From Clostridia bacterium (GTDB taxonomy: Bacteria > Bacillota > Clostridia > Lachnospirales > Lachnospiraceae): a DNA stretch of 64,000 nucleotides. Within the stretch, counting starts at the first letter, position 1. Each line of letters starts with the position of its first letter. The stretch lies in assembly GCA_910574835.1 (NCBI GenBank), contig CAJTDE010000022.1, positions 1-64,000 on the forward strand, written 5' to 3'. The notes under the pieces were generated by a model that was not told the DNA's origin, did no database searches, and saw nothing but the letters and a program-made list of their open reading frames with translations. The position numbers and the translations under genes are program-made. Below are positions 13,671-53,600 of this stretch, piece by piece.

Positions 13671-13699
13671 TTGCAAATCACACTCCCTTGTGTTATGAT
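13671..13699 (+). promoter_or_regulatory. Promoter of the rtcB-prfH leader
   Basis: -35 TTGCAA (13671-13676) and -10 TATGAT (13694-13699) with a 17-bp spacer. Transcription would begin near 13706, about 500 nt before the rtcB start codon. Confidence 0.6.
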
Positions 13700-13869
13700 C
13701 TATCCGTCGCTAAGAAATCAGGATTTAAAACATCCTATATGTTTGGATAGCATATGCAAATAAAAACATCCCACGGGCAAGGTGAATTTGTCTAAAAGGC
13801 AAAAAAGCACCCTGGGGCATATATCTATATAAAAGAAGCATATGCGAACAAATGAAAGGAGGGCTTACT

Positions 13870-13950
13870 ATGCAGAAGTATTATAAAGCAGACAGCAACA
13901 TATTGAAACTGACAATCAAAGGTACAATGGCCCTCATGATATACGGATAA
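13870..13950 (+). CDS. 26-residue putative leader peptide
   Basis: ATG at 13870 preceded by AAAGGAGGG with 8 nt spacing, one of the strongest ribosome binding sites in the region. The peptide is basic at its start (MQKYYKAD) and hydrophobic at its end (MALMIYG). It sits between the candidate antiterminator and the terminator, a position typical for a regulatory leader peptide of the rtcB-prfH operon. It could also be a short-lived small membrane peptide; there is no comparison to support either. Confidence 0.55.
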   Translation: MQKYYKADSNILKLTIKGTMALMIYG

Positions 13951-14019
13951 CTCTGTTCTGCCGGGTGAAGTCTGCCCTCGCACCATAACATTGCTATCTG
14001 CGCTCATCATTCGTATGCC

Positions 14020-14041
14020 GCACCTTTGAGGTGCTTTTTTT
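14020..14041 (+). terminator. Intrinsic terminator in the rtcB leader
   Basis: GCACCT-TTG-AGGTGC followed by seven T residues, 170 bp upstream of the rtcB ATG. Read-through would be needed to express rtcB from the promoter at 13671. Confidence 0.85.
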
Positions 14042-14209
14042 GTACCCATTTTTCCCTTATATTGACTTGTGTACGTCTGACAAACCTTCAAACCGTACAT
14101 CAAAGGCACTCGCCTTATTCAATGTAAGCAAGGATTTTCCGAAAATAAATTATAAAAATCAACTGATTTTTCCAACCATTTTACAACCAACAAGGAGAGA
14201 AATAATTAT

Positions 14210-15319
14210 ATGAAAATAGTAAACGGCATTTATGCCAATGCAGCAATATTTACAGATGATGTGGAAAGCTACGCGGAGGCCCAAGTGAAGCTAATCTGCG
14301 ATCAGGAAGCAGCCAAAGGCAGCGCCATCTGCCTGATGCCCGATATCCATCCGGGGAAGGCAGGCCCTATCGGGCTTTCCATGACTGTAACGGAGCAGGT
14401 CATCCCACAGCTATTAGGCGTGGACATCGGCTGCGGAATGACTTGTGTAAAACTAAATAAGCAAAAGGCGGAATTTCAAAAGCTGGACGCCGTGATTCGT
14501 CAGCAGATACCGGCCGGATTTGCTATCCGAAAAGACATCCATCCTATGGCCCTGGAATTTCCCTATGAAGCGCTCCGCTGCTTCCGGCACATCCGGGAGG
14601 ACAAAGCCCTGCAAAGCCTTGGCACCCTGGGCGGAGGAAATCATTTTATTGAGCTGGACAAAGGACCTGACGAATCCCTTTATCTCATCATCCATACCGG
14701 CAGCCGGCATCTGGGCCAGGAAATGGCGGAGTACTATACAAAGCTGGCTTCAAAAAAGCTCAAAAAGCAAGGGAAGAATGTTCCCTATTTTCTGAGCTAT
14801 CTGGAGGGCGACGATAAGAATGCCTATCTGGAGGATGTGGCTCTGATTCAGCAGTACGCAGAATTAAACAGGGAGATCATCGCCCGGGAAATCTTAAAAG
14901 CCATGAAATGGAAGGCGGCGGACCAATTTTCCGTGGCCCATAATTACCTGGATGCCCTTGGTATTCTGCGCAAAGGCGCGATTTCCGCTAAAGCGGGGGA
15001 ACGGGTGATAATCCCGGTAAATATGAGAGACGGCGTGATTCTCGGTCTTGGAAAGGGCAACGCCGCCTGGAACTTTTCCGCACCCCACGGCTCCGGGCGG
15101 CGGCTTAAACGCACGGATGTAAAGAGCCGTCATACCGTGTCGGAATTTAAAAAGGAAATGAAAGGCATCTACAGCACATGCGTGGGAAGCGATACCTTAG
15201 ATGAGGCTCCCTTTGCCTACCGTGCTATGGAAGATATTTTGAAGCAGATCGGGGACACCGTGGAGGTTACGGAAATTTTAAAGCCGGTTTACAGCTTCAA
15301 AGCAGGAAGCAGAAAATAA
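14210..15319 (+). CDS. rtcB: RtcB-family RNA ligase/repair protein
   Basis: GTP- and Mn2+-dependent 3'-phosphate RNA ligase, 369 aa. Conserved pieces in order: MPDIHPGKAGPIGLS near residue 43, DIGCG with the metal-binding Cys near 78, GTLGGGNHFIEL, the HTGSRHLG metal site near 165, SVAHNYLD, and APHGSGR near 291 with the histidine that is guanylated. This is the shorter RtcB subgroup paired with release-factor homologue PrfH, which follows 100 nt downstream. For such pairs the published role is repair of cleaved 16S rRNA decoding-centre ends together with rescue of the damaged ribosomes. ATG has AAGGAGAGA upstream. Confidence 0.93.
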   Translation: MKIVNGIYANAAIFTDDVESYAEAQVKLICDQEAAKGSAICLMPDIHPGKAGPIGLSMTVTEQVIPQLLGVDIGCGMTCVKLNKQKAEFQKLDAVIRQQIPAGFAIRKDIHPMALEFPYEALRCFRHIREDKALQSLGTLGGGNHFIELDKGPDESLYLIIHTGSRHLGQEMAEYYTKLASKKLKKQGKNVPYFLSYLEGDDKNAYLEDVALIQQYAELNREIIAREILKAMKWKAADQFSVAHNYLDALGILRKGAISAKAGERVIIPVNMRDGVILGLGKGNAAWNFSAPHGSGRRLKRTDVKSRHTVSEFKKEMKGIYSTCVGSDTLDEAPFAYRAMEDILKQIGDTVEVTEILKPVYSFKAGSRK

Positions 15320-15421: not shown

Positions 15422-16021
15422 ATGATCATACAAATCAGCGCAGGCCAAGGACCCTGCGAATGTCAGCTTGCGGTTGCAAAGCTGTACGAAGCACTGAAAC
15501 GAGAATACAAAGATCTCACACTGCTGTCAAGCACCAAGGGCGCCAAAAAAGACTGTTTTGATTCCCTCCGCTTCCGGACCGATCAAAATCTGAGCCATCT
15601 GGAGGGCACGGTGCTGTGGATCTGCAAAAGCCCCTTCCGAAAGAATCACAAACGGAAAAACTGGTATGTAGACGTAAGCATCCTCCCGGAGCAGACGGAA
15701 ATTGCAAAGGATGAGCAATACCGCATAGAAAAATTCCACTGCGGAGGAAAAGGCGGCCAGAATGTAAATAAGGTTGAAACAGGCGTACGCATCATTCACC
15801 TCCCTACCGGCCTTACGGCAGAATCTACCGAGGAACGCAGCCAATTTCAAAACAAACAGCGCGCTTTTGCAAAACTGGCAGATAAATTAAACCGGCTGGA
15901 GCAGGAACAGCAGGCCCGGCAGACCAACACCGCATGGCGGGAACATAACCGCATCATCCGCGGCAATCCGGTGCGTATCTATGAAGGAGAGCATTTCATA
16001 CGTAAACAAAAAGCTCCCTAG
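15422..16021 (+). CDS. prfH: Peptide chain release factor H homologue
   Basis: 199-residue class-I release-factor-like protein that keeps the catalytic GGQ loop (CGGKGGQNVNKVETGVR near residue 110) but lacks the domain that reads stop codons. The N-terminal 95 residues are PrfH-specific (MIIQISAGQGPCECQ). After the GGQ, the basic QFQNKQRAFAKL helix is present, as in PrfB/ArfB. In PrfH-RtcB pairs the factor releases peptides from ribosomes nicked in the decoding centre before RtcB reseals the rRNA. ATG preceded by GGAATGGAG from the hairpin element. Confidence 0.92.
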   Translation: MIIQISAGQGPCECQLAVAKLYEALKREYKDLTLLSSTKGAKKDCFDSLRFRTDQNLSHLEGTVLWICKSPFRKNHKRKNWYVDVSILPEQTEIAKDEQYRIEKFHCGGKGGQNVNKVETGVRIIHLPTGLTAESTEERSQFQNKQRAFAKLADKLNRLEQEQQARQTNTAWREHNRIIRGNPVRIYEGEHFIRKQKAP

Positions 16022-40278: not shown

Positions 40279-40299
40279 ATGTTTGACATTTGAATACGG

Positions 40300-40487
40300 A
40301 AAGTCTTCAGGGCAGGGTGAGATTCCCGATCGGCGGTATAGTCCGCGAGCGTGTATGCGCAGGAACTGACAGAAGGTTATGCAAGGGCAGAGATGTTTTT
40401 GGATTTGTCTTAGGATTTGTTTTTGGTTCAGTTCAGGATTTGGTGAGATTCCAAAACCGACAGTATAGTCTGGATGGAAGAAGATGT
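40300..40487 (+). ncRNA. FMN riboswitch (RFN element)
   Basis: Hallmarks in order: TCTTCAGGGCAGGGTGAGATTCCC, GATCGGCGGTATAGTCCGCGAGC, GGTGAGATTCCAAAACCGACAG and the closing GTCTGGATGGAAGAAGA. The helix between the halves is longer than usual and T-rich. It senses FMN and, through the terminator at 40550-40586, turns off the riboflavin transporter gene. Confidence 0.96.
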
Positions 40488-40549
40488 GTACAAGGTCAGA
40501 ATTGTTTTGGCAGAGTTTTTGTTATATTGCTTTTTATTCTGATGAGAAT

Positions 40550-53401: not shown

Positions 53402-53530
53402 CCAAAGAGTTAGAACATCTGCATCTAAGCCCTGTCCTTTTGCCTGAGAGATAGACAGCCCTCCCACATTCCAACAGAGGTACTGCGTTACACCTTCGGC
53501 GCTCACTTACTGAGACTCTCCAGAGTTTGT
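53402..53530 (-). ncRNA. Glycine riboswitch
   Basis: In minus sense: CTCTGGAGAGTCTC, GAGCGCCGAAGGTGTAA, CTCTGTTGG, then ATCTCTCAGGCAAAAGGACAG and a closing TCTTTGGAGGG. These are the conserved blocks of the glycine aptamer; only one aptamer and a ghost of the second (GGAGGGC) are visible, the singlet form. It controls the AGCS symporter, where high glycine is expected to change expression. Confidence 0.93.
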
Positions 53531-53600
53531 CAATTTTTGTCCGACAGAGAGTATCATAGCACAATCCCCTCAAAAGTGCAACACAATTGTTCCTTTCTAA

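Follow-up and report, generated by a model that had tools for sequence, protein, structure and literature searches.

The leader of the rtcB-prfH operon in a Clostridia bacterium and its relatives, a probable ribosome-mediated transcription attenuator

Introduction

The RNA ligase RtcB and the peptide chain release factor PrfH are held to rescue and repair ribosomes that have been cut in the 16S decoding centre. An operon with this task raises the question of how its transcription is tied to the state of the ribosomes, and the long leader of the rtcB-prfH operon of a Clostridia bacterium suggests an answer. The stretch of DNA analysed here, the window, has 64,000 nucleotides and belongs to a genome of 5.0 Mb (G000). 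The initial annotation of the window had proposed a translation-linked attenuator in which an upstream open reading frame (uORF) lies between two competing RNA elements; the attenuator and its conserved uORF are upheld by the comparison of relatives, while the antiterminator strand that had been named, at 13801-13811, is not.

In the available part of PMC9223846, the RtcB2-PrfH operon is reported to shield E. coli ATCC 25922 against colicin E3. Ribosomes cleaved by colicin E3 in vitro initiate at about 75% of the control and fail in elongation through impaired decoding (available part of PMC2615495). In the literature searched, which held few subscription papers, no description of an attenuator or of any regulation of rtcB-prfH was found, and the main text of PMC1586002 and the main text of PMC9223846, as far as it is available, contain no mention of "leader" or "attenuat".

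The operon and its leader in the window

The operon lies on the forward strand, as do all parts of its leader, and consists of the two genes that the initial annotation had recognized. The first, rtcB (14210-15319), encodes an RtcB-type RNA ligase, the partner of PrfH, which passes the Pfam RtcB model and also matches RtcB models of NCBIfam but scores under their curated cut-offs. The second, prfH (15422-16021), encodes peptide chain release factor H with its GGQ motif and passes TIGR03072 with 189.8 bits at a cut-off of 166.65, so a PrfH gene stands beside an RtcB-family gene on the same strand. The closest named RtcB relatives in a GTDB scan with the window RtcB are from Clostridia bacterium, Bacterium 1XD21-13 and Lachnospiraceae bacterium. 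The other rtcB of the genome (L001) has, by eye, no uORF of the leader's kind.

The leader is preceded, as proposed, by a promoter-like site, TTGCAA-N17-TATGAT with TG before the -10 element (13671-13699), from which transcription would start near 13706. The uORF (13870-13950) has 26 codons, encodes MQKYYKADSNILKLTIKGTMALMIYG, ends with TAA and has a strong Shine-Dalgarno (SD) sequence of the AGGAGG type, GGAGGGCUUACU (13858-13869), which is region 1 and the 5' strand of the putative anti-antiterminator; 13859-13865 pair with 13929-13935 and 13866-13869 with 13921-13924. Region 2, UCAAAGGU (13916-13923), lies within the uORF and is complementary to ACCUUUGA (14022-14029), which is the 5' arm and loop of the terminator. 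Region 3, the remainder of the uORF 3' end (13928-13949), can pair with region 1 or with 13995-14020, and region 4 (13995-14019), directly upstream of the terminator, is part of the antiterminator 3' strand. These regions were delimited by folding, with column and swap tests in relatives for regions 1 and 2 and swap tests for regions 3 and 4. A second GCCCTC past the uORF stop (13974-13979) is by complementarity an alternative partner for the SD, with 0.23 pairs in the free state of the folded window.

The intrinsic terminator T1 (14020-14041), which the initial annotation had also noticed, lies between the uORF and rtcB and is formed by GCACCUUUGAGGUGC, with its stem at 14020-14034, followed by U7. 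A second hairpin, T2 (14030-14053), overlaps T1 and is present in many close relatives: the T1 3' arm pairs with GUACC across the U tract, and CAUUUUU follows.

The folding of the whole leader is no better than that of dinucleotide shuffles (z -0.11), so the signal lies in alternative pairings across relatives and not in total stability. A loose scan for the architecture on both window strands finds three places, one of which is the rtcB-prfH leader; the plan alone is therefore unspecific and it is conservation that carries the claim. Curated Rfam covariance models at gathering thresholds have no match at the leader, and their matches in the window are an FMN and a glycine riboswitch elsewhere, at 40299-40489 (forward strand) and 53422-53533 (reverse strand), respectively.

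Spread of the leader among relatives

The GTDB scan with the window RtcB gave 50 loci, and PrfH searches added loci from the family and the order. Seventy regions upstream of rtcB were examined: 47 of the 50 from the RtcB scan, 14 of 20 and 8 of 8 from the further sets, and the window. Six members of the set of 20 (L052-L055, L060 and L068) duplicate places of the RtcB scan and were not reused; L117, L119 and L120, which have no rtcB start, and L134-L147, which were added later, stand outside the 70. The plan, which consists of SD, ATG, uORF, spacer, terminator and rtcB, is found in 57 of the 70 regions (40/47, 10/14, 6/8 and the window), so a short leader ORF with an SD stands between promoter and structural gene in these. 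The 57 leaders comprise 54 distinct sequences and 56 places, since L122 is the same place as L085.

The plan is absent in the other 13 regions, which are L100 and L067 (one place), L071, L109, L110, L112-L115, L065, L069, L127 and L129. Among them, L100 (= L067) and L071 still have 59-60% RtcB identity to the window. The genome of L071 (G024) contains prfH, lacks the T1/T2 signature and has a different upstream region. At L071 a tandem rtcB pair precedes prfH; visual inspection of the region upstream of the first rtcB shows an ORF of some 50 codons and also a hairpin whose tail is T-rich.

PrfH itself is patchy. At E <= 1e-30 it is present in 4 of the 16 genomes of the genus and in 19 of the 397 sampled from the family, at E <= 1e-35 in 11 of the 392 sampled from the order and, above the TIGR03072 cut-off, in 4 of the 398 sampled from the phylum. 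Of 61 related genomes, four contain the T1/T2 signature GGTGCTTTTTTTGNNCCCATTTTT, with one mismatch allowed, as a single copy and the other 57 lack it; these four are the genus genomes that hold prfH. The window leader DNA has no match in plasmids, and that of L079 has none in phages.

More distant loci (L065, L069, L127, L129, L134, L135, L137 and L113) have uORFs of 11-18 codons, whose SD pairing is like that of shuffles in seven of the eight (p 0.14-0.49), the remaining one being L129 (p 0.016). No such uORF was seen by eye in L136 and L138-L140 or found by a scan in Skermanella and Thiodictyon. The uORFs of the phylum loci L134, L135 and L137 have 17-18 codons, end in ...EELLI and stand 31-38 nt before rtcB; no terminator is visible there by eye, and translational coupling is possible.

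Conservation of the uORF

The initial annotation had made its proposal depend on conservation of the small ORF, which is indeed conserved in frame and length: it has 24-28 codons in 52 of the 57 leaders and 23-32 in 56, the exception being L096 with 14. The uORF start was picked partly by pairing energy and was corrected by hand for four leaders. For the following comparisons, 30 representatives were used, which are leaders with less than 75% identity. In codons 2-15 of these, stops make up 0.2% in frame, versus 11.5% and 9.7% in the other frames.

The peptide is another matter. Among 27 close leaders, the three codon positions vary alike in codons 2-16 (0.19, 0.28 and 0.26), with no excess at the third position, and the pairwise codon differences in codons 2-15 are 2170 non-synonymous versus 467 synonymous; between clades the peptides differ. 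Judged by these comparisons, the uORF is kept as frame and length and not as peptide. Attenuators with an arrest peptide, of the erm and tna type, need a conserved nascent-peptide sequence, and no such sequence is found across the leaders compared. The drift of the peptide argues against an arrest peptide, and this reading is not supported.

Two mutually exclusive helices

The first helix, the putative anti-antiterminator, joins the SD and the letters that follow it to a complementary segment near the uORF 3' end, and both sides co-vary. Clade A, to which the window belongs, mostly has GGAGGGCUU or GGAGGACUU, much of clade B has GGAGGACAAU with AUUGUCC, and the partners are AGGAAGAUC with GAUCUUCCU in L057 and GAUGAUUAC with GUAAUCAUC in L056. 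When the leaders are aligned with MAFFT by sequence alone, standard pairs fill 180 of 208 cells (87%) of the seven core pairs, versus 33-64% after a slide by 1-6 columns; double changes occur at five of the seven pairs. Between the arms of the 30 representatives, native pairing has -15.25 kcal/mol versus -11.84 kcal/mol for swapped partners, a difference reached by 0 of 20000 permutations, while a control pairing between the SD and the terminator arm barely differs (-8.76 native, -8.05 swapped, p 0.014). Against letter shuffles, the helix reaches 0.05 in 26 of the 30 representatives. An anti-antiterminator is thus indicated across relatives, and in the free state of the window itself it forms only 0.23 pairs, so that the off state of the window would rest on T1 and other folds.

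The second helix, the putative antiterminator, joins the uORF end to the flank and 5' arm of the terminator. Region 2, which is AGAGGC in much of clade B, forms its pairs with T1 in 186 of 210 cells, versus 30-55% when slid and a mean of 162 cells with permuted arms, and 0 of 20000 permutations reach 186; double changes are again found at five of seven pairs. These 7-mers were aligned by eye with the pairing already known, and the unanchored swap tests are therefore the stronger evidence. In these, the uORF end with the terminator flank and arm has -23.06 native and -16.54 swapped in the 30 representatives (0/20000), and 24 of the 30 reach 0.05 against letter shuffles.

For 27 of the 57 leaders the 5' arm of the terminator was assigned manually, and the terminator is doubtful in L057, L061, L064 and L111. 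The terminator tests were repeated with the 26 representatives that remain when these four are left out, in which the antiterminator has -22.07 versus -15.76 swapped (0/20000). Its two halves, region 2 with the T1 arm and region 3 with the upstream flank, each give 0/20000 in the 26, and region 3 with the flank alone has -12.79 native and -9.65 swapped. Clade B (16 representatives) gives 0/20000 in all three swap tests. Clade A (10 representatives) is weaker, with 152 and 489 of 20000, and region 2 with T1 alone gives 18686 of 20000 there because the arms hardly vary.

Since region 3 is common to both helices, the two are mutually exclusive. The antiterminator also excludes the terminator and overlaps the leader ORF. 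Across the relatives compared, the conserved competing strand is therefore placed inside the uORF, at 13916-13949.

Folding with a modelled ribosome

The leaders were folded at equilibrium, so that pausing of RNA polymerase and kinetics do not enter, with a ribosome at the start of the uORF (early), at its end (late) or absent (free). Over the 57 leaders, the mean number of T1 pairs is 3.0 early, 6.2 late and 5.3 free, and that of antiterminator pairs is 4.3, 0.2 and 1.4. In 46 of the 57 leaders the late ribosome leaves T1 stronger than the early one does, with the reverse in 1 and no clear difference in 10; among the representatives the late state is stronger in 20 of 30, with the reverse again in 1. 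The free state likewise exceeds the early one in 42 of the 57 leaders and 18 of the 30 representatives, with the reverse in 2 in each set. In the model it is the early ribosome that weakens T1, so the predicted on-state is that of a ribosome which has initiated and has not moved.

For the window transcript 13706-14034, the early state has 5.54 antiterminator and 1.68 T1 pairs, and both the free and the late state have 0.0 and 5.7. With a longer transcript the predicted switch becomes smaller, T1 and antiterminator pairs of the early state being 3.4 and 3.16 at 14041 and 3.39 and 2.97 at 14050; the early state is nearly even at 14041, so kinetics would matter.

Proposed mechanism

The rtcB-prfH leader is probably a ribosome-mediated transcription attenuator, whose input would be the progress of any ribosome on the uORF, with no particular arrest peptide. 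The comparison of leaders supports a retained reading frame and two alternative helices that have region 3 in common; in the cell, the RNA would switch between these helices, and read-through would depend on translation of the uORF.

Three exclusive states are envisaged, the anti-antiterminator (off), the antiterminator (on) and the terminator (off). When no ribosome is present, the SD would pair with the uORF 3' end, so that the 5' strand of the antiterminator is taken, T1 forms and transcription stops. In normal elongation, the uORF 3' end would soon be covered by the ribosome, no antiterminator would form and T1 would again stop transcription. A ribosome that has initiated, covering the SD, and is stuck within about the first dozen codons would leave the uORF 3' end free. 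The free 3' end would then take both the stretch before T1 and the T1 5' arm as partners, T1 would not form, and rtcB-prfH would be transcribed. In eight relatives (L102, L103, L105, L116, L118, L070, L124 and L061), in which a hairpin arm is at or adjoins the SD of rtcB, the switch may work at the level of translation.

The natural signal presumably comes from ribosomes impaired in elongation, for instance by a cut in the 16S decoding centre. The behaviour of ribosomes cleaved by colicin E3, together with the protection from colicin E3 by the E. coli operon, suggests that damaged ribosomes may induce rtcB-prfH. We tentatively go one step further and regard the leader as self-diagnostic, a reading that is attractive and still rather doubtful: a ribosome cut in the decoding centre would initiate on the uORF and could not decode the next codons, and only in this posture, with the SD covered and the uORF 3' end bare, would the RNA permit transcription of the repair genes. 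A broken ribosome would in this way call for its own repair with neither an arrest peptide nor a protein sensor, and a related design may have arisen independently in the E. coli rtcB-prfH leader.

An attenuator that reads the progress of the ribosome, and not a peptide, would let the defect itself directly induce the genes that repair it, and the leader is a candidate reporter of elongation-impaired ribosomes. Decoding-centre nucleases and early-elongation inhibitors are the conditions predicted to reveal what the operon protects these bacteria against.

Alternative readings

It is possible, though rather unlikely, that the leader senses antibiotics in the manner of vmlR or erm: a drug would stall ribosomes on the uORF, at initiation or close to it, and the main natural signal would not be ribosome damage. 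Any early stall would turn the modelled RNA on, the three-state logic is as in vmlR (available part of PMC9226507), and E. coli Rtc has been linked to drug resistance (available part of PMC12606134). The uORF offers no conserved peptide as a drug target, yet stalling at initiation in vmlR needs none, according to the same part of PMC9226507. The genes also speak against a drug sensor, as they are rtcB and prfH, the E. coli version of which is reported, in the part of PMC9223846 that is available, to be protective against colicin E3.

That the uORF is a codon-specific attenuator is improbable. Like the leaders of amino-acid operons, it would sense the shortage or cleavage of particular tRNAs whose codons, for Asn and Thr, are common in codons 2-15, and RtcB would be induced for tRNA repair. 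In the 30 representatives, codons 2-15 contain 68 Asn and 62 Thr codons, versus 39.7 and 34.9 in mononucleotide shuffles. However, Asn makes up 16.2% in frame and 12.8% in another frame, almost as much, so an A-rich unpaired stretch may explain its excess. Two representatives, L057 and L064, have no Asn in codons 2-15, and a run of one regulatory codon is not found, the codons being mixed and no single-codon run being common to the clades. Lys is depleted in the same codons of the 30 representatives (39 versus 68.1 in mononucleotide shuffles).

It is still less probable that the hairpins are a constitutive partial terminator, the uORF being incidental and the conserved letters reflecting descent only. 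Such a reading could draw on the little variation within clade A and on a T1/T2-like element that also occurs before portal-like genes in five viral contigs and so can exist without an rtcB-prfH leader; it is opposed by the compensatory changes across clades, by the swap tests and by a uORF frame that is kept while the peptide drifts. In the viral contigs (L148-L152), some of which are near-identical, the overlap GGTGC-T7-GYRCC-CATTTTT lies directly before putative portal genes, which we take to encode the phage portal protein. Such a pair of overlapping hairpins that share a U tract may serve more generally as a leaky terminator.

The strand proposed in the initial annotation, in which AAAAAAGCACC (13801-13811) would be the antiterminator for the terminator 3' arm and be switched by uORF translation, is rejected as barely credible: its full 11-nt complementarity to GGTGCTTTTTT (14030-14040) is real, was reached in 0 of 200 shuffles of the window upstream region and has a helix energy of -14.6, but AAAAAAGCACC occurs in only 2 of the 57 leaders (the window and L072, whose RtcB is 98% identical to that of the window) and forms at most 0.78 of its 11 pairs with the T1 3' arm in any modelled state of the window. 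Among the other leaders, L073 has a complement of 8 nt, found in 0.01 of shuffles, and the remaining 54 have 0-8 nt (0.02-1.0). Because the segment precedes the uORF SD and would stay uncovered during translation of the uORF, the position of the ribosome would have no direct control over it. The stretch from promoter to uORF is 170 nt in the window and L072 and 94 nt in L073, versus 41-67 nt, measured with a loose promoter-type site, in 24 of the 27 closest loci (L073-L099; besides L073, the exceptions are L090 and L096, with no site at this distance), so AAAAAAGCACC sits in a lineage-specific longer leader.

Relation to known attenuators

In attenuators of amino-acid operons of the trp type, one of three exclusive helices is chosen by the position of the ribosome, and the absence of translation leads to termination. 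The rtcB-prfH leader is alike in its helix logic and in termination when there is no translation. Unlike the trp type, it has no run of one regulatory codon, and its peptide is unconserved.

The logic of a ribosome-mediated attenuator is thus known, and the closest described relative is the attenuator of vmlR, an ABCF resistance gene of Bacillus subtilis. In the available part of PMC9226507, the vmlR leader is likewise described with a uORF, an anti-antiterminator, an antiterminator and an intrinsic terminator; read-through occurs when a ribosome stays at the uORF and keeps the anti-antiterminator from forming, and the SD of the gene is partly sequestered. The vmlR uORF has 3 codons and its SD is single-stranded before SL-1, according to the same text, whereas the rtcB-prfH uORF mostly has 24-28 codons. 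In further contrast to vmlR, the SD of the rtcB-prfH uORF is itself the 5' strand of the putative anti-antiterminator, and the antiterminator strand comes from the 3' end of this uORF. The uORFC-6-1 motif, mainly found before hflX in Bacillales, is also a candidate element with a uORF before a gene for the rescue of stalled ribosomes, and it differs in the gene and in the order of its parts; it is likened here by its description in the available part of PMC8632094.

The E. coli rtcB-prfH leader (L141-L144) also has a uORF, of 15 codons and with AGGAGG, in which one segment is a 10-bp complement of the SD region, with an energy of -16.4 and a shuffle p of 0.002. No clear terminator was found in this leader, and it is not claimed as the same element; uORF and pairing are identical in the four E. 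coli records, which leaves no covariation to test, so the likeness is a lead only. The 15-codon uORF, MTNPLSMTLCRPFQD (about 1693-1740 in L141), is absent from the annotated features listed and is present in ATCC 25922.
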